This document shows, piece by piece, positions 32,452 through 39,009 of a DNA stretch of 41,401 bases (position 1 is the stretch's first letter; every line of letters begins with the position of its first letter). Where the stretch lies: positions 131,929 through 173,329 of the forward strand of contig CAINDA010000065.1 of NCBI GenBank assembly GCA_903847205.1, written 5' to 3'. The stretch comes from an uncultured Bacteroidota bacterium (GTDB lineage Bacteria > Bacteroidota > Bacteroidia > 2-12-FULL-35-15). Made by a program: the position numbers and the translations under genes. The notes below the pieces were generated by a model that saw nothing but the letters and a program-made list of their open reading frames with translations, was not told where the DNA came from and searched no databases.

Positions 32452-34620
32452 TTACTTAGTAATTATTATTCTTCTGGTTGAAACCTGATTGTTTACTTTG
32501 AGCTGTAATAAAAACATTCCGCTTGAAACATTATTTGCATTCCAGACTGTAGAATAGTTACCGGCTGATTTGGTGCCGTTTTCAACGGTGGCAATTTTAT
32601 TTCCTAATAAATCTACAATTGTAAGTTCAACTGCAGCTTCTTTTGAAATAGAGTAGTTAATGGTTGTGCTTTCATTGAATGGGTTCGGATAATTTTCAAG
32701 AGCAGTGCTGATACTCTTTGAATCATTTATGCCGGCAAGCAATGAATGTCTTGCAGCAACATTGCTGCAATAAGTGCAGGTATTGCCGTTTGCATCAACA
32801 ACAGTTAAACATACCTGGTAAGTTCCGGAATCAGCATAAACGTGATTTGGATTTGATGTAGTAGAATTTGTGCTGTCGCCGAAATCCCAGAAATAGCTGT
32901 TGAATGCAACTAAAGAAGTATCTCCGAAATTCACTGTGTTAGATGAAGTACTGTCAGAAGCCGAATAAAAATAAGCAAGCTGACATCCGCCTCCATTCTG
33001 ACTGCCGACAACTACATTATCGCAGTGTGTGCAGCTGCTTCCGCTTGAATCAGCAATTGTTAAACAAACCTGGTATGTTCCGGCAGAAGCATACACATGT
33101 GTTGGATTTTCCAAAGTGGAAGATGTGTTATCTCCAAAACTCCATGAAAAACTTGAAGGAGTACCTCCTGAATAATTCACAAAGTTGATTGTGTTTGGAG
33201 CACTGCTGCTATCAGCATAAGAATAAAAATTAGTCTGGCAGATGCTGTCAATTTGAGTACCTACTGTAATAATATCACAATGTGTGCAGGTAGTTCCATT
33301 AGCACCGTCAATGGTTAAACACACTTGGTATGTGCCTGCTGCAGCATATACGTGAGTCGGGTTTTCCAATGTAGAAATTGTGTTGTCGCCAAAATCCCAT
33401 GAAAAGTTAGTTGGTGTTCCTCCTGAATAATCCGAAAAATGAATTGTATTGGGAGTATTGCTGCTATCTGCGTAGGTATAAAAATTTGCCTGGCATAAAC
33501 TATCGTTTTGTGCGCCTACAGTAATAATATCGCAATGAGAGCAAATTACATTGCCATTAGAATCAGCAATTGTTAAACAAACCTGGTATGTTCCTGCTGA
33601 AGCATACTGGTGATTTCCGTAAGCTTGATTTGAAGTAGTACCATCTCCGAATTCCCATGAAAAGCTAGAAGGGTTTCCTTGAGAAGCATCTGCGTAATTG
33701 ATCGAATTCACACTGCTTGAATCAGAATATGTATAAAAATTTGCCTGGCATACACTGTCAATTTGATTACCGACATAAACGTTATCGCAATGTGTGCAGG
33801 TACCTCCATTTGAATTGGTAATTGTTAAACATACCTGGTATGTTCCTGCTGCAGCAAATAAGTGAACCGGATTTTCCAATGAGGATGTAGTGTTATCCCC
33901 GAAGTTCCAGGAAAAGCTGGTTGGCGATCCGCCGGAATAATTTGTAAAATTTATTGAATTTGGCGTATTGCTGCTGTCTGCATAAGTATAAAAATTTGCA
34001 TTACATGTGCTGTCAATTGGATTACCAATATAAACGTTATCGCAGTGTGAGCAGGTACTGCCATTTAAATCAACAATAGTTAAACATACCTGGTATGTTC
34101 CTGCAGCTACAAAAACGTGAAGCGGATTTTCCAAAGATGAAGTTGAGCCATCACCAAAATCCCAGGAAAAGCCTACGGGCGATCCTCCGGAATAATTTGT
34201 AAAGTTTAGTGAATTTGGCGTGCTGCTGCTATCCGAGTAAGTATAAAAATTTGCCTGGCAAATGCTGTCAGCCTGACCGCCTATAACGATATTATCGCAG
34301 TGCGAACACATGATGCCATTTGAATCAGAAATTGTTAAACATACCTGGTATGTTCCGGAATTAGCAAATGTATGATTGGGACTTTCTACTGAAGAAGTTG
34401 TATTATCGCCGAAATCCCAATAATATGTCATTGATGAATTTCCAATGGAAGATGAATTAACAAACATCACATTTCCATTATTTACTGTATCGTTAACAGA
34501 AGTATATCCTGCAATACATTGTGAGTTTGCTTTTAGGCCCAAACTCAAAAGTGCTCCAATTCCTAAAACTTTTGTAAGTCTTTTTAAATTGTTTTTTTTA
34601 GTTGTTATGGTCGTTTTCAT
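32452..34620 (-). CDS. Seven-PKD-repeat surface protein with T9SS type A sorting domain
   Basis: The protein has 722 residues. A signal peptide (to about 33, K-A-N-S) is followed by seven PKD-like repeats of about 85 residues. Each has W-x-F-G-D-x-T-x-S, N-P-x-H-x-F/Y and G-T-Y-Q-V-C-L-T-I, and a C-(S/T)-(H/Y)-C motif in the tail; most also have a Cys before N-F-Y-T-Y or its equivalent. The last ~85 residues form a sorting domain: N-Y-P-N-P-F-N-E-S-T, V-D-L-L-G-N-K-I, ending R-R-I-I-I-T-K. The protein should be secreted by T9SS and held at the surface. An ECF-type promoter motif lies at 34689-34662, about 40 bases before the ATG. The gene ends at a strong minus-strand terminator. The recurrent CxxC suggests disulfides or metal binding. 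Confidence 0.92.
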   Translation of the reverse strand: MKTTITTKKNNLKRLTKVLGIGALLSLGLKANSQCIAGYTSVNDTVNNGNVMFVNSSSIGNSSMTYYWDFGDNTTSSVESPNHTFANSGTYQVCLTISDSNGIMCSHCDNIVIGGQADSICQANFYTYSDSSSTPNSLNFTNYSGGSPVGFSWDFGDGSTSSLENPLHVFVAAGTYQVCLTIVDLNGSTCSHCDNVYIGNPIDSTCNANFYTYADSSNTPNSINFTNYSGGSPTSFSWNFGDNTTSSLENPVHLFAAAGTYQVCLTITNSNGGTCTHCDNVYVGNQIDSVCQANFYTYSDSSSVNSINYADASQGNPSSFSWEFGDGTTSNQAYGNHQYASAGTYQVCLTIADSNGNVICSHCDIITVGAQNDSLCQANFYTYADSSNTPNTIHFSDYSGGTPTNFSWDFGDNTISTLENPTHVYAAAGTYQVCLTIDGANGTTCTHCDIITVGTQIDSICQTNFYSYADSSSAPNTINFVNYSGGTPSSFSWSFGDNTSSTLENPTHVYASAGTYQVCLTIADSSGSSCTHCDNVVVGSQNGGGCQLAYFYSASDSTSSNTVNFGDTSLVAFNSYFWDFGDSTNSTTSNPNHVYADSGTYQVCLTVVDANGNTCTYCSNVAARHSLLAGINDSKSISTALENYPNPFNESTTINYSISKEAAVELTIVDLLGNKIATVENGTKSAGNYSTVWNANNVSSGMFLLQLKVNNQVSTRRIIITK

Positions 34621-34661
34621 GATTCTGATTTTTTAGGTTAATGTTTCACTCTATAAACAAA

Positions 34662-34689
34662 CACGGAAGAAAAATGGTAAAGGTTGGGT
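34662..34689 (-). promoter_or_regulatory. ECF-type promoter motif P1 (PKD protein gene)
   Basis: On the minus strand ACCCAACC (34689-34682), 16 bases, then CGTG (34665-34662), followed by TTTGTTTATAGAG. The AACC/CGTG pair at this spacing is the general form of ECF sigma promoters. The PKD protein ATG is 41 bases further on. Confidence 0.75.
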
Positions 34690-34712: not shown

Positions 34713-34925
34713 TTATGAAGAGAACAGCTTAAAGTGTGTCCGTGAAGCAAAGCAGCGATGTACTGGAACCCATGCATTATTCATTTTAACAACATAATCA
34801 GCAGAAGTATATTCTGCTATCCATAGTTGGTTTGCTTTAAAGCCCAAACCTGTAAGTGCGCCAATTCCTAAAACTTTTGTAAGTTTTTCTAAATTGTTTT
34901 TTTGATTTGTTAGTATAGTTTTCAT
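34713..34925 (-). pseudogene. 5' remnant of a PKD-protein paralogue
   Basis: This 70-codon frame starts M-K-T-I-L-T-N-Q-K-N-N-L-E-K-L-T-K-V-L-G, nearly identical to the signal peptide of the seven-PKD protein. It still resembles it in I-A-E-Y-T-S-A-D against I-A-G-Y-T-S-V-N-D, then loses similarity and stops. No PKD repeat follows. Its leader and promoter region (34926-34994) also match that of the PKD protein. I read it as the surviving 5' end of a tandem duplicate whose body was deleted. The product would be a short exported peptide if made at all. Confidence 0.75.
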
Positions 34926-34966
34926 AATCTCATTTTTTTAGGTTAATGTTTCCCTCTATTAACAAA

Positions 34967-34994
34967 CACGGAAGCGGAAAGTAAAAGGTTGGGT
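34967..34994 (-). promoter_or_regulatory. ECF-type promoter motif P2 (remnant gene)
   Basis: ACCCAACC (34994-34987), 16 bases, CGTG (34970-34967), then TTTGTTAATAGAG. It is nearly the same as P1, including the sequence between the motif and the start codon, and stands 42 bases before the remnant's ATG. Confidence 0.75.
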
Positions 34995-35207: not shown

Positions 35208-36338
35208 TTATTGATAAGAAACCGCTATTACAGCATCTCCATTGGCCATTTGCAATGAAGGGCCATTATTTTGAAATAAAGAACATTTAAATTTCACATG
35301 TAATTTTTTAACGGGCTGATTGTTTTCATTATTCGAATAATTTTCAGTTGATATAATCTGGAAATAGCTGTCGTTAGGCTGAGTGTCGGTGTTTGAATAA
35401 TATACAACTCCTGAATTATCAGTCCAGGTAATTACAACATTTGAAAGTGAAAGAAGATTTGCATTTGGAAACTGCACAGCAAAATCAAAGTTGGTAAAAC
35501 ATCCGGCAAATCCCTGCGTTGCAACGTTTTTAAAAACTTTAGAAGTGCAGCCGTCAGAACCGGTTATTTGCAAACTCACCTTATAAATCCCTGAATTGAC
35601 GTATGTGTGAGTGCTGATAAAACTATTACTGGATGAGCCGTTAAGGATGATGCCGTCTCCAAAATCAATTATATAGGTATAAGGAGTTGTACTGATTTGA
35701 GAGCTTGAAAATGAAATATTATTTCCTGATATCACAGAAGAAATAAGACTTACACTGCACGCTGCATCCGGCACGCCGACTTTTACCTGATTACAAATAC
35801 TGCTTGAGCAGTTATTTGCATAATTAATAGTTAAGCAGGTATTATAGTATCCGGGATGAGAATAAGTATGAATTGGAGCGTCCAGAGCAGAAGTAGCACC
35901 ATCACCGAAATTCCAGGAGTAGGAAAGCACAGAGTCAATTGAAGATGGGGAAGATATAAAGTTCACCGGAAATTGAGTGGGTGTACCGAGAATCGTATCC
36001 ACTCCAAGAAAGGAGTAGTAGCCTGCTGTCAACGAAGTATTTCTCAATGCAGAAGATACAGTATCATTATTGATTTGAAATTTAATTCTGCTATTGCAAT
36101 GCACGCAGTTAGTCGGCTTGAGTTCGCCTAAAAAATTATATACATGATCGGCATCCTGCAAATAGGATGAATACATATAATAATTATTCACTCCTGCCTG
36201 AAGGTTAAAAGGAATATTACTCACAGAGCCTTTAAAATAAAAAACAGGTGCATCATTTGAAGCAGCAGGGTAATCCTTCCTGCACCCAGCTGCACAGATA
36301 AAAACAATAAAAACAGCTAAAAAAAATACACGATTCAT
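35208..36338 (-). CDS. PKD-domain lipoprotein encoded with the sigma/anti-sigma pair
   Basis: The protein has 376 residues. M-N-R-V-F-F-L-A-V-F-I-V-F-I-C-A-A-G-C is a lipoprotein signal with lipid attachment at Cys19. Two PKD-like domains follow: Y-S-W-N-F-G-D-G-A-T-S with H-T-Y-S-H-P-G-Y-Y-N-T-C-L-T-I (about 142-180), and Y-I-I-D-F-G-D-G with H-T-Y-V-N-S-G-I-Y-K-V-S-L-Q-I (about 222-258). A C-terminal beta-rich domain of unknown type closes the protein. It starts 3 bases after the stop of the barrel protein gene, so the three genes form one operon. I infer an outer-membrane partner of the signalling barrel, or a first output of the sigma factor. Confidence 0.85.
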   Translation of the reverse strand: MNRVFFLAVFIVFICAAGCRKDYPAASNDAPVFYFKGSVSNIPFNLQAGVNNYYMYSSYLQDADHVYNFLGELKPTNCVHCNSRIKFQINNDTVSSALRNTSLTAGYYSFLGVDTILGTPTQFPVNFISSPSSIDSVLSYSWNFGDGATSALDAPIHTYSHPGYYNTCLTINYANNCSSSICNQVKVGVPDAACSVSLISSVISGNNISFSSSQISTTPYTYIIDFGDGIILNGSSSNSFISTHTYVNSGIYKVSLQITGSDGCTSKVFKNVATQGFAGCFTNFDFAVQFPNANLLSLSNVVITWTDNSGVVYYSNTDTQPNDSYFQIISTENYSNNENNQPVKKLHVKFKCSLFQNNGPSLQMANGDAVIAVSYQ

Positions 36339-36341
36339 AAA

Positions 36342-38261
36342 TTAAAAATCAAATAAATTATAAGAGATGATTATTTTCAAACCAATATTTCTTTCAAATT
36401 TTTCCTGCGAGAAAAATGTATTGTTTTTCACGTCAAGCAAACCGAAATTCGCAATTGCAGCTACGCTGAATTTTTGTGATATTCTTCTGCGGTATCCTAC
36501 TGCCAATGATGCATCCCATTTATTAAAAGCATTTGAATAATACCCTGTTACAGTTGTTTGAGTTGTATTAACAGGATTCGGAATGTTACCTGTCTGAGTA
36601 GAATCAAGCGGCATAGGAGTCACAGTTGTAGTATTAGTAGTAACCTTGCTTTGCGAATTTAAAAGATAAGATACTGAACCCCCTATGCTAATAGTGTTTT
36701 TATCGTTAATATGAAACTGAAGCATTATCGGCAGCACTGCGTAGTGCAGTGATTTAGCATCAATAATTTTATCAGTTGTAACCGATCCAAAGCTGTAAGC
36801 AGTTTCTGAAAACACTTTTCCGCTTTCTTTTAAATAATAAATGCTTCCATACTGAACTCCTGAATAGAGCGACCATTTTTGATTGACATAATGAGTAATG
36901 CCTATTCCCAAAACAGGATTAAACCCGCGCGCTTCTGAGGCATCTGTATAGTTCCACCCCATTTCAATATTTGTTCCTGCTTCAATAGAAAAGTAAGTTG
37001 CACTTGCCAAACCGCCTGCAGACGCAGTTGCAGCAGCTGCTAAATTATTTTGTGCTGCTAAAGCAGAATCCTGCTTTTGTTTTGCAAGGTCTTTAACAGG
37101 AATAGAAACTTCCGCTTGTTTTGAAGCTGCTGCCAGCGAATCAATTTTAACTTCAGTTTTCTGCACTGATAGAGATTGAGAAGTCGTATTCTGGGTTGAG
37201 GCAGCTGTTTGATCAGGCTGCCCGGTTTTATTTAAGGCTGCTGCACTGCCATCTTTTTCCGAATTTATTTCAGGATGTTTAACTGCACTAGTTTCATTAC
37301 CAGTCTTTACATCATCCGCTTTCATCTGTATCAGCTCATTACTATGAGTTCCAGTTTTATCTTTCTGTTCGTTTTGAGTTAATGGAGCACCTGCATTATT
37401 TTTTTGTGAATTTATTTCCTGTTGGTCAGACTTCGTTTCAGTATCAATTTTTGTTTTGTTTTCCTTCACTTTATCTTCCGCTGTCAATGCCGGAGTTAGA
37501 TTCGAAGATTTGTTTGAGGACAAATTTTGATTCAATGAGACGGGCAGATTAATTTTTTCTGATTTTTTTTCTTCCTTATTATTTTTATTCAATTTTGATG
37601 CAGCTGATTTTATTGCTGTTTCCTGATTTTGAAAATCTTTTTTCCGGGTTTCGCTTTTAGCAAGAATAGATTTGTTTTCAGTTAAACTTTTTTCTTTTTT
37701 AGAAATTTTATTTTGCTCCCTCACAGCCTTAGCCATGGCTGCTGTTTCTTTAATCCGTTCATTCGAAGAAACAGCTTTTTCTTTCAAGGAATTTTCTGCT
37801 AGATTTTTCTTTGACAAATCAATATCCTGCTTTTCCTTTTCAGTTATTGGGGCTGCATTCGTTTTTGAACTATTTTTTTCAGCTGCAACTTTTCCAGCTG
37901 CTGCTTCCATCTCAGAAACAGTATTCTCTTTTTGCGAATTTGAATCTAAGTTTGAAATTGATTTTACTGCGTTCAGATTTTCTTTAATTATGCTGCCGCC
38001 TTTATTTTCTTGCTGATGATTTATTTCAGAAATATTTTTTGTGCCTCCGCTATTTTCTTTGCTGACAAACAGAAGTGTTAAAGCAATACCGCTGAATAGC
38101 CCGATTATAAAAATTGTTCCCCACCTGAAGATTTTGCTTAATCTTCTGGAAGAGTCAATCTTTTTTTCCGCCTTTTCCCAATTTTCTTCGTTGAAAACAA
38201 ATTCTTTTTCTTCGAATTTTTGGCGGATCAGATCATCAAAATTTTCCTGTTCGCTCATCAC
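36342..38261 (-). CDS. Probable dual-membrane-spanning anti-sigma factor (cytosolic head, one TM, long linker, outer-membrane barrel)
   Basis: The protein has 639 residues. Residues 1-44 are charged and cytosolic (F-D-D-L-I-R-Q-K-F-E-E-K-E-F-V-F-N-E-E-N-W), short but placed like an anti-sigma head. Residues 48-66 are a single membrane helix. Residues 67-418 are a low-complexity linker rich in Lys, Glu, Asn, Ser and Ala, with no fold visible. Residues 420-639 are a barrel-like domain (A-T-Y-F-S-I-E-A-G-T-N-I-E-M-G, repeated aromatic strands, final F-D-F). The start overlaps the ECF sigma gene by 4 bases. The same layout is known from Bacteroides dual-membrane-spanning anti-sigma factors (Dma proteins). 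The linker is long enough to cross the periplasm. Sigma binding is inferred from layout and gene order, not from a recognised anti-sigma motif. Confidence 0.82.
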   Translation of the reverse strand: MMSEQENFDDLIRQKFEEKEFVFNEENWEKAEKKIDSSRRLSKIFRWGTIFIIGLFSGIALTLLFVSKENSGGTKNISEINHQQENKGGSIIKENLNAVKSISNLDSNSQKENTVSEMEAAAGKVAAEKNSSKTNAAPITEKEKQDIDLSKKNLAENSLKEKAVSSNERIKETAAMAKAVREQNKISKKEKSLTENKSILAKSETRKKDFQNQETAIKSAASKLNKNNKEEKKSEKINLPVSLNQNLSSNKSSNLTPALTAEDKVKENKTKIDTETKSDQQEINSQKNNAGAPLTQNEQKDKTGTHSNELIQMKADDVKTGNETSAVKHPEINSEKDGSAAALNKTGQPDQTAASTQNTTSQSLSVQKTEVKIDSLAAASKQAEVSIPVKDLAKQKQDSALAAQNNLAAAATASAGGLASATYFSIEAGTNIEMGWNYTDASEARGFNPVLGIGITHYVNQKWSLYSGVQYGSIYYLKESGKVFSETAYSFGSVTTDKIIDAKSLHYAVLPIMLQFHINDKNTISIGGSVSYLLNSQSKVTTNTTTVTPMPLDSTQTGNIPNPVNTTQTTVTGYYSNAFNKWDASLAVGYRRRISQKFSVAAIANFGLLDVKNNTFFSQEKFERNIGLKIIISYNLFDF

Positions 38262-38815
38262 ACAGTTTTTAAGGGAGAAACTAAATTTGTTAACATATCT
38301 TTTAACTTACTTCTCGAAAAATTCAAATGCCACTTTGATGTTCCCTCCGACATACTCAGCATATCGCCGATCTCTTTATGGCTGAACCCATCAATAATAT
38401 ATAAATTAAACACCTTTTGGCTCATCGGGGGCAGTTTCATAATCAGTGCATGAATCTGCTCCATATTCATTTTTGAAATTGCACTGTTTTGCTCTGCATA
38501 ATCTCTTGTTTCATAGTATTCCTCAACGTATTCAATATTCTCTTTATGTTTTTTATCCTTCCTGAATTCATCAATAAGTATATTTATCATCACCTTTCGT
38601 ATCCATGTTTTAAACGGAATTTCGGGTTTATATTTATCCAGATTCTTCAATATTTTCAAAAAACCCATATTCAGCTTTTCTTCTGCATCCTCCCGTGAAT
38701 TAGTGTACCTGAAACAAACCCCCATTAAATAACTGTAAGTTATTTTATAAAGCTCGTATTCCGCCTTGCGTTCATGATTAATGCAAGCTGTGAGAAGTTC
38801 CAGTTCTATGTTCAT
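38258..38815 (-). CDS. ECF-type RNA polymerase sigma factor
   Basis: The protein has 185 residues. Region 2 spans about 20-90: Y-S-Y-L-M-G-V-C-F-R-Y-T-N-S-R-E-D-A-E-E, G-F-L-K-I-L-K-N-L-D-K-Y, and F-K-T-W-I-R-K-V-M-I-N-I-L-I-D-E-F-R-K. Region 4 spans about 122-175: L-P-P-M-S-Q-K-V-F-N-L-Y-I-I-D-G-F-S-H-K-E-I-G-D-M-L-S-M-S-E-G-T-S-K-W-H-L. Region 3 is absent, which defines ECF sigma. The stop overlaps the start of the barrel/anti-sigma gene by 4 bases, so the two are translated together. Two copies of an ECF-type promoter motif lie upstream (P3 and P4), which suggests autoregulation. Confidence 0.95.
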   Translation of the reverse strand: MNIELELLTACINHERKAEYELYKITYSYLMGVCFRYTNSREDAEEKLNMGFLKILKNLDKYKPEIPFKTWIRKVMINILIDEFRKDKKHKENIEYVEEYYETRDYAEQNSAISKMNMEQIHALIMKLPPMSQKVFNLYIIDGFSHKEIGDMLSMSEGTSKWHLNFSRSKLKDMLTNLVSPLKTV

Positions 38816-38858
38816 CTATCATAAAAGTAATTAAAAAACCATATCCTCTGATTATAAA

Positions 38859-38886
38859 CACGTACAATACAATTAAAAGGTTGGGT
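38859..38886 (-). promoter_or_regulatory. ECF-type promoter motif P3 (sigma factor operon)
   Basis: ACCCAACC (38886-38879), 16 bases, CGTG (38862-38859), then TTTATAATCAGAG. The sigma factor ATG is 43 bases further on, the same placement as P1 and P2 to their genes. AT-rich sequence lies upstream of the -35-like half. Confidence 0.75.
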
Positions 38887-38981
38887 CGAATATAATTTTT
38901 TTTTCAATACATATAATTGAATCCCGATTCCTTTATTAGATAAAGGAAAAAATGCCCCTTTACCTCCCTTACAATTATTAA

Positions 38982-39009
38982 CACGTACAAAAAAGGGAAA
39001 AGGTTGGGT
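38982..39009 (-). promoter_or_regulatory. ECF-type promoter motif P4 (tandem copy)
   Basis: ACCCAACC (39009-39002), 16 bases, CGTG (38985-38982). It lies 123 bases upstream of P3 in the same direction with no open frame between, so it can act as a second start for the sigma operon or may be a relic of a duplicated leader. Confidence 0.65.

Follow-up and report, generated by a model that had tools for sequence, protein, structure and literature searches.

Dma proteins have been introduced as a new anti-sigma factor class in which a single chain extends from the cytosol to the outer membrane; they consist of an N-terminal anti-sigma domain, a transmembrane (TM) helix, a disordered tether, and a C-terminal barrel, and they adjoin ECF21 sigma factors (ECF, extracytoplasmic function; PMC13088901). 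In the Dma2 operon, the genes that follow encode DUF4943 and DUF4858 (printed order, BT_1559-1556; PMC13088901). For Reo, outer-membrane damage has been proposed as the signal, and nigD genes belong to the EcfO regulon (PMC13114119). In these reports, what such proteins sense is a matter of hypothesis (PMC13088901, PMC13114119). Here, we describe three adjacent genes on the minus strand of a 41,401-nucleotide stretch of DNA (the window) from an uncultured Bacteroidota bacterium (contig CAINDA010000065.1), which encode an ECF sigma factor, a predicted Dma/Reo-type anti-sigma factor, and a PKD lipoprotein. We think it probable that they form an autoregulated Dma/Reo-type sigma switch for the operon itself and for a surface protein secreted by the type IX secretion system (T9SS). 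The three genes, in window coordinates, are as follows.

38258..38815, minus strand: ECF sigma factor, 185 amino acids (aa) (Pfam Sigma70_r2 and r4_2 over cut-off)
36342..38258, minus strand: predicted Dma/Reo-type dual-membrane anti-sigma factor, 638 aa (Pfam, AlphaFold2 model, fold match, homology)
35208..36338, minus strand: PKD lipoprotein, 376 aa, lipobox Cys19 (Pfam; retained in 66 of the 71 related loci that leave space for it)

An earlier sequence-only reading had placed these three open reading frames (ORFs) at positions 35208 to 38815 and had noted a 4-base overlap between the first two genes and a 3-base gap ahead of the third. The ORFs and the gap were confirmed, and the lipoprotein gene is probably cotranscribed with the other two. 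The overlap is 4 bases if the anti-sigma gene starts with the GTG at 38261 (639 aa) and 1 base (TGATG) with the likelier ATG, from which 638 aa are counted. The nearest solved relatives of the sigma factor by sequence are SigW and SigH.

The same reading had divided the anti-sigma protein into a short head, one TM helix, a tether of ∼350 residues, and a C-terminal barrel ending in Phe, a layout that AlphaFold2 and Pfam confirmed.

38127..38258, minus strand: cytosolic head, residues 1-44, two helices, predicted sigma-binding part (AlphaFold2 structure, conservation, head profile)
38055..38123, minus strand: TM helix, about residues 46-68 (hydropathy of the closest relatives and model helix 24-68)
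37011..38054, minus strand: disordered periplasmic tether, residues 69-416, rich in K/A/S/N (low predicted local distance difference test [pLDDT] values; 12% mean pairwise identity)
36345..36998, minus strand: predicted outer-membrane beta-barrel, residues 421-638 (PF13568; pLDDT; NspA/OmpW/OmpA fold match)

In the AlphaFold2 model, predicted on 74 sequences, helices span residues 2-16 and 24-68, the tether has 10-residue block means of pLDDT of ≤57 over residues 71 to 420, and the C-terminal ∼220 residues are predicted to fold as a confident barrel, with block means of 91 to 98 over residues 421 to 638 and one exception at 79. OMP_b-brl_2 (PF13568) matched the C terminus with 28.6 bits, marginally over the cut-off of 27, and the structural matches were NspA (Z 16.3; root mean square deviation, 2.9; 154 aligned residues), OmpW (Z 16.0), and OmpA (Z about 15). 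On this model, we are confident in predicting a small OmpA/OmpW-like outer-membrane barrel, for which a count of eight strands would be a deduction from the fold matches. Mean pairwise identity across the 74 sequences is highest in the head (30%), with 22% in the barrel and 12% in the tether, whose length ranges from 132 to 362 aa (median, 208). Head residues K14 and W27 are kept in at least 90% of the rows, and the relatives have a single hydrophobic stretch at the TM position, apart from 5 of the 74 rows that lack one at the threshold used. The terminal Phe is present in the window protein yet in only 13 of the 74 sequences. A FecI-FecR type of control was rejected because the FecR domain had no match at E values up to 1 (Pfam) and because the C terminus is predicted to be a barrel. 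A profile of the head found nothing convincing among PDB sequences.

Across the phylum, the head profile matched 117 of 395 Bacteroidota genomes, and in 18 of 18 head loci picked from the listed matches the head adjoins a sigma gene (L, G, and C numbers are our handles for loci, genomes, and contigs). One of these loci, L256 (genome G293), holds sigma, Dma, DUF4943, and DUF4858 genes in the published order (head match, whole-genome E 2.7e-7), and in L253 and L254 a divergent NigD gene stands beside the sigma-Dma pair (head match, whole-genome E 6.8e-4 in G285). The barrel matched in all three, with E values of 4e-9 to 6e-7 that were computed among the ORFs of one locus only. With regard to group ECF21, the sigma profile matched the sigma genes of these three loci, but the window sigma factor is separated from them by a supported branch. 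Because the head profile matches loci with published gene orders, membership in the Dma/Reo family rests on homology and not on shape alone, and the Dma-type layout claimed by the sequence-only reading was borne out on both counts. Judged by its sequence, the window protein is a homologue of the Dma/Reo dual-membrane anti-sigma factors, as compared via gene-order-matched loci and not via the Bacteroides thetaiotaomicron sequences themselves.

Several relatives differ in layout or surroundings. In L243 (3914-5730) and L244 (3867-6222), which are among the 18 head loci, head-TM proteins of ∼240 aa without a barrel match are encoded beside sigma genes, and a separate next gene encodes a product with an end resembling that of a barrel protein; these gene pairs may represent a split version of the switch. 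The window's own genome has a second sigma-Dma pair (L029:3328-5654; G000, C45), which lacks the lipoprotein and falls across the supported branch of the sigma tree described below. A further sigma-Dma lineage (family f45; L232-L238) has no PKD lipoprotein in the loci tested, whose neighbors are YceI, planctomycete-type cytochrome, plastocyanin, repeat lipoprotein, or DUF5777 genes.

Relatives were collected by scanning named genomes with a sigma alignment, and the best 80 of 152 confirmed loci were kept. Of the eight loci from which this alignment was derived, seven have the lipoprotein, and the lipoprotein count therefore leans towards that subfamily; the 80-locus counts also include near-copies (e.g., L115/L117/L119 and L097/L098), and some records figure twice, once as a named contig and once as a G genome. 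The set of Dma proteins (A4, 75 in all) left out L117 and L119, near-copies of L115, and set A7 took in 45 of the 75 plus the proteins of the window, L034, and L198. A Dma-type gene follows the sigma gene in 75 of the 80 loci, and the other 5 reach a contig edge 0 to 665 bases past the sigma match. The lipoprotein gene comes next in 66 of these 75 loci, or 66 of the 71 that leave room for it (≥1,200 bases). The gene arrangement is no chance product, since the same order recurs in these 66 of 71 loci. In a tree of 106 sigma proteins, all 71 lipoprotein-associated sigma factors lie on one side of a branch with a support of 100/97. This side has 86 rows (71 with the lipoprotein, 5 without, 9 at contig edges, and 1 other) and includes the window sigma factor; the 20 other sigma factors, among them those of L253, L254, and L256 and of the second pair in the window's own genome, lie across the branch. 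The tree was midpoint rooted for drawing, and four long branches and one possible long-branch join were flagged.

A profile of the C-terminal lipoprotein core (A6) matched 5 of the 395 phylum genomes, and the full gene set was seen in 3 of those 5. In the two best besides the window's own genome (G094 and G101; L198 and L199), a T9SS-tail gene, sigma, Dma, and lipoprotein stand in a row; the two weakest (G139 and G434) have small lipoproteins and no sigma gene in the fetched stretch. The triplet is thus near-fixed within one sigma subfamily but in the minority among the 117 genomes with a head match. The PKD lipoprotein proposed as a fixed third member holds that place in this subfamily only. 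Its novelty was likewise upheld in part: L253, L254, and L256 have NigD or DUF4943/DUF4858 genes instead, and a third gene in a Dma operon is in itself known (PMC13088901). The window operon belongs to a separate, well-supported sigma subfamily with a PKD lipoprotein as its near-fixed third gene. In one locus (L066:11037-13445), two lipoproteins of the same family follow the Dma gene in tandem.

The lipoprotein itself can be divided as follows.

36003..36269, minus strand: lipoprotein core, N-terminal half, residues 24-112, with Cys78 and Cys81 (profile lipoN)
35520..35987, minus strand: two PKD domains, residues about 118-273 (Pfam over cut-off, two stretches)
35211..35513, minus strand: lipoprotein core, C-terminal half, residues 276-376 (profile A6)

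Its model is of high confidence (mean pLDDT, 92.5), with a PKD fold match of Z 11.9 over residues 192-276. The homologues in L086, L087, and L105 (210 to 214 aa) keep both core segments and have no room for two PKD domains, which suggests, from these sequences, that the two conserved segments form one core into which the PKD domains are inserted. At least two cysteines are found in the N-terminal core half in 48 of 63 rows. The core had no Pfam match over cut-off, the three short homologues had none at E values up to 5, and the core profile found no convincing relative among PDB sequences; the structure comparison of the whole lipoprotein with the PDB was filled by PKD domain matches, and the core halves were not folded alone. 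A NigD-like identity was rejected, as neither NigD_N nor NigD_C (Pfam) matched the lipoprotein at E values up to 1 or its PKD-less relatives at E values up to 5. A phylum search with the whole lipoprotein was dropped, since its hits in 228 of 395 genomes were mostly PKD domains of other proteins, and the C-terminal core was used instead. The lipoprotein set (A5, 66 lipoproteins) left out L112, L117, L119, and L122, and A6 also left out L084 and L111. The window's own genome has a weakly matching PKD-less relative (L167:1491-2144; whole-genome E 0.0014), which sits about 1.3 kb before the genome's other exact promoter-like sites.

These sites form a small set, four members of which lie in the window.

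38857..38886, minus strand: ECF promoter-like site P1, 42 bp upstream of the ATG of the sigma gene (exact ACCCAACCTTTT-N12-CGTGTT)
38980..39009, minus strand: ECF promoter-like site P2, 165 bp upstream of the ATG of the sigma gene (exact match)
34965..34994, minus strand: ECF promoter-like site, 40 bp before a 70-aa secreted ORF (exact match)
34660..34689, minus strand: ECF promoter-like site, one mismatch, 40 bp before a T9SS cargo gene

The sequence-only reading had no promoter-like sites before the sigma gene, where two exact copies were found. The exact 18-base form, ACCCAACCTTTT-N12-CGTGTT, occurs three times in the window versus never in 100 shuffles. Throughout the 5.49-Mb genome, the form matched exactly at five places, with a single mismatch at one, and with three mismatches at three, whereas the reversed control yielded three matches in all; a 16-base form with free spacing recovered the five exact places (reversed control, 0). 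The site with three mismatches near the second sigma-Dma pair (C45) was dropped, as three such sites compare with three in the control. The two exact sites outside the window lie ahead of tandem genes for 40-residue single-TM proteins at C51.

For the relatives we used a strict form, CAACC-N16-CGT(G/A)T, which occurs ≤400 bp upstream of the sigma gene in 26 of the 80 loci, compared with a mean of 0.1 in 50 mononucleotide shuffles. When the spacer was varied from 10 to 22, 26 matches were obtained at 16, 3 at 21, and none at the other lengths. A total of 84 sequences (the 80 loci, the window, L034, L036, and L167) contain 61 strict sites versus 3 in the reversed control, and 59 whole genomes contain 24 sites in 11 genomes (reversed control, 5).

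Some small genes lie close to such sites. The nearly identical 40-residue single-TM genes at C51 (G000 C51:53471-53729; L167:3472-4200) stand in tandem, and two of them each begin 41 bp after an exact site; a 44-aa TM protein with a similar start is encoded between site and sigma gene in L043. Further lipoprotein-like genes (∼285 to 306 aa) of the same genus, without a Pfam match, lie behind strict sites in L173, L179, and L172 (G030, G008, and G023, respectively). A similar leader between site and ATG, roughly TTTGTTAATAGAGRGAAACATTAACCT, is found at window positions 34920-34965 and 34620-34660, in L167, and at the G022 and G023 sites; this leader belongs to target genes of the clade and is not found in the sigma operon.

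Two genes downstream of the operon are also preceded by the site, one of them for a type IX cargo.

32452..34620, minus strand: T9SS cargo, seven PKD stretches and a type A sorting domain, 722 aa (PF18962, 40.8 bits; TIGR04183, 40.6 bits)
34713..34925, minus strand: short 70-aa ORF whose N-terminal region resembles the one in the T9SS protein

Both sorting-domain models are over cut-off. Neither the cargo gene that shares the promoter-like site nor the short secreted ORF was part of the sequence-only reading. That the short ORF is a broken copy of a T9SS gene was considered, and a homologue of the same length with its own site in G022 (L180, L185) counters it. Among the 61 strict sites, 28 precede sigma genes, 18 others precede ORFs of ≥300 aa, 3 precede short ORFs (34713-34925 in the window and two at C51), and 12 precede neither. 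For 17 of the 18 long nonsigma targets, the product matches PF18962 over cut-off; one of these is the cargo of the window, and the 16 from relatives include near-copies. The Pfam test is independent of the T9SS-tail profile that we used for gene neighborhoods, for which 13 of the proteins encoded behind the site served as input. With this profile, and with adjacency defined as within 700 bp, a T9SS-tail gene starts ≤700 bp after the operon in 20 loci and ends ≤700 bp before the sigma gene in 17, giving 37 of 80 loci in total, or 27 of the 54 with room on both sides. The expected value per locus is 0.013 from the other T9SS-tail genes in the loci and about 0.03 from the 273 first-look candidates in the window's own genome (5.49 Mb). 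The site is present at 16 of the 37 adjacent T9SS-tail genes versus 1 of the 22 others, a contrast that the origin of the profile biases towards a link. The cargo content varies (PKD, SprB, sortilin, and, below cut-off, Cu-monooxygenase-like domains), and the sorting tail is constant. With at least 150 sorting domains encoded in the genome, the T9SS machinery is likely to be present.

Taken together, we propose that the cytosolic head would hold the ECF sigma factor and that the anti-sigma factor would run as one chain from the inner membrane, as a disordered tether through the periplasm, to the barrel in the outer membrane. The PKD lipoprotein would work with the barrel, either as part of the sensor or as its target. 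Upon a change in the state of the envelope or surface, the head would free the sigma factor, which would then read the CAACC-N16-CGTGT promoters of its own operon, amounting to positive autoregulation, and also the sites before the T9SS cargo and the small secreted or membrane proteins. Autoregulation predicts a rise of the own operon, in agreement with the deletion of dma2 in B. thetaiotaomicron, which is reported to raise its own operon (log2 fold changes of 4.54 for das2 and 6.00 for bt_1557; PMC13088901). The lipoprotein is lost from the operon less often than the cargo and may therefore be a partner of the barrel or sensor. The sequence-only reading had the barrel sense the outer membrane or surface directly and act on the sigma factor with no separate relay, which is a hypothesis.

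Several observations weigh against this proposal. Upstream of the sigma gene, 54 of the 80 loci have no strict site, and the upstream stretches inspected in L253, L254, and L256 showed none; among the 59 whole genomes, those with sigma-Dma genes yet no strict site include G036, G039, and G058, and G047, G048, G056, and G057 carry single sites ahead of nothing recognized. As for targets, the rule applied assigns neither a T9SS nor a sigma gene to 12 of the 61 sites (that in L053 lies 212 bp before a T9SS-tail ORF), and the lone exception among the 18 long targets, in L051, is a tRNA synthetase gene. No adjacent T9SS-tail gene was seen in 43 of the 80 loci, many of whose contigs are short, and T9SS tails are common, with at least 150 in the window's own genome, where only one such gene has the site. 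The lipoprotein is missing in five loci with room for it (L060, L063, L081, L094, and L107). Finally, the surface-export signal of lipoproteins is described as K-(D/E)2 (PMC5080379), and the window lipoprotein, in which the +1 Cys is followed by just K-D, shows a weaker version; K-(D/E)2 occurs within the first eight residues in 13 of 63 lipoprotein rows, and C-x(0-2)-[KQR]-[DE] in 37 of 63.

Rival readings differ mainly in what is sensed, and the data do not decide between outer-membrane damage and T9SS cargo state as the signal. The barrel could, as in an EcfO-Reo-type envelope alarm, report failure of outer-membrane assembly or damage; periplasmic proteolysis would then free the sigma factor, and the lipoprotein and the T9SS protein would be outputs only and not parts of the sensor. 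We regard this as a substantial possibility, which we do not favor: the homology to Reo- and Dma-type loci argues for it, and the neighbors of sigma-Dma pairs vary by lineage (DUF4943, NigD, YceI or cytochrome domains, PKD lipoprotein), as outputs would, but within the subfamily the lipoprotein is kept in 66 of 71 loci while the cargo domains change, which is more the behavior of a partner than of an exchangeable output. Alternatively, the barrel and the PKD lipoprotein may track whether T9SS cargo is exported or docks at the surface, and cargo that builds up or is lacking would then feed back on its own promoter. PKD domains occur both in the lipoprotein and in many cargos, a T9SS-tail gene is adjacent in 37 of 80 loci, such genes share the site, and there is a distant precedent in Porphyromonas gingivalis, where PorA, a protein with a C-terminal domain (CTD), affects PorXY-SigP signaling (PMC7712824). 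Given that the cargo domains vary and that the other 43 loci have no adjacent T9SS-tail gene, we consider such a cargo sensor unlikely. A dedicated feedback device, in which PKD lipoprotein and barrel form one surface receptor that reads the presence of the neighboring T9SS cargo and the tether relays this to the sigma factor, which would control receptor and cargo from the same promoter, seems to us about as unlikely.

It is also conceivable that the barrel gene encodes an ordinary outer-membrane protein whose N-terminal helices are a mere membrane anchor and that the sigma factor is controlled otherwise. PF13568 is a broad family, with 13 matches at E values up to 0.1 in the window's own genome, and binding of the head to the sigma factor is a prediction. 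The head, however, is the best conserved part of the protein, at 30% against 22% in the barrel and 12% in the linker, and it adjoins a sigma gene in all 18 picked loci, even on the barrel-less proteins of L243 and L244, which makes this explanation highly improbable.

If the proposed autoregulated switch is correct, a Dma-type switch would be linked to type IX cargo, in bacteria other than the gut Bacteroides from which the class is known. If receptor-cargo feedback is true, it would add another mode of ECF control over type IX secretion, directed at single cargos and not at the machinery. The subfamily offers a defined promoter-like site, a candidate target set, and a coinherited lipoprotein, so that signal, regulon, and partner are each testable. 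In searches of the open-access literature, no report of a Dma-type pair accompanied by a PKD lipoprotein or a T9SS cargo came to our notice.

Compared with described systems, the window operon has the same chain layout as the Dma and Reo proteins and differs in its conserved partner and predicted regulon, together with a clear promoter-like site. With the Das2-Dma2 operon of B. thetaiotaomicron (BT_1559-1555; PMC13088901) it has in common the sigma factor, head, TM helix, disordered tether, C-terminal barrel, and a third operon gene, and homologous sigma and Dma genes occur in the same order in L256. The third and fourth genes of that operon encode DUF4943 and DUF4858, with no PKD lipoprotein, and effects on vesicles and polysaccharide utilization loci are reported (PMC13088901); the sigma factor of L256 falls outside the window sigma subfamily. 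EcfO-Reo of Bacteroides/Phocaeicola likewise has an anti-sigma factor that reaches from cytoplasm to surface and lipoproteins in the regulon (PMC13114119). These are NigD lipoproteins (PMC13114119), whereas the window lipoprotein and its PKD-less relatives have no NigD match, and in the NigD-flanked loci L253 and L254 the stretches inspected contained no CAACC-N16-CGT(G/A)T site.

With regard to type IX secretion, PorXY-SigP and PorA of P. gingivalis also tie an ECF sigma factor to the system and have a CTD protein affecting signaling (PMC7712824, PMC4800418); that system uses two-component control and T9SS component genes, whereas the window has a Dma-type anti-sigma factor and a cargo gene. 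The SM6 promoters of Flavobacterium psychrophilum also have a CGT −10 box, with an ECF/anti-sigma pair and T9SS genes among the targets (PMC9723704). Those targets are machinery components such as GldN and PorU, and the responsible sigma factor is left open in the accessible text, which mentions no lipoprotein partner (PMC9723704).

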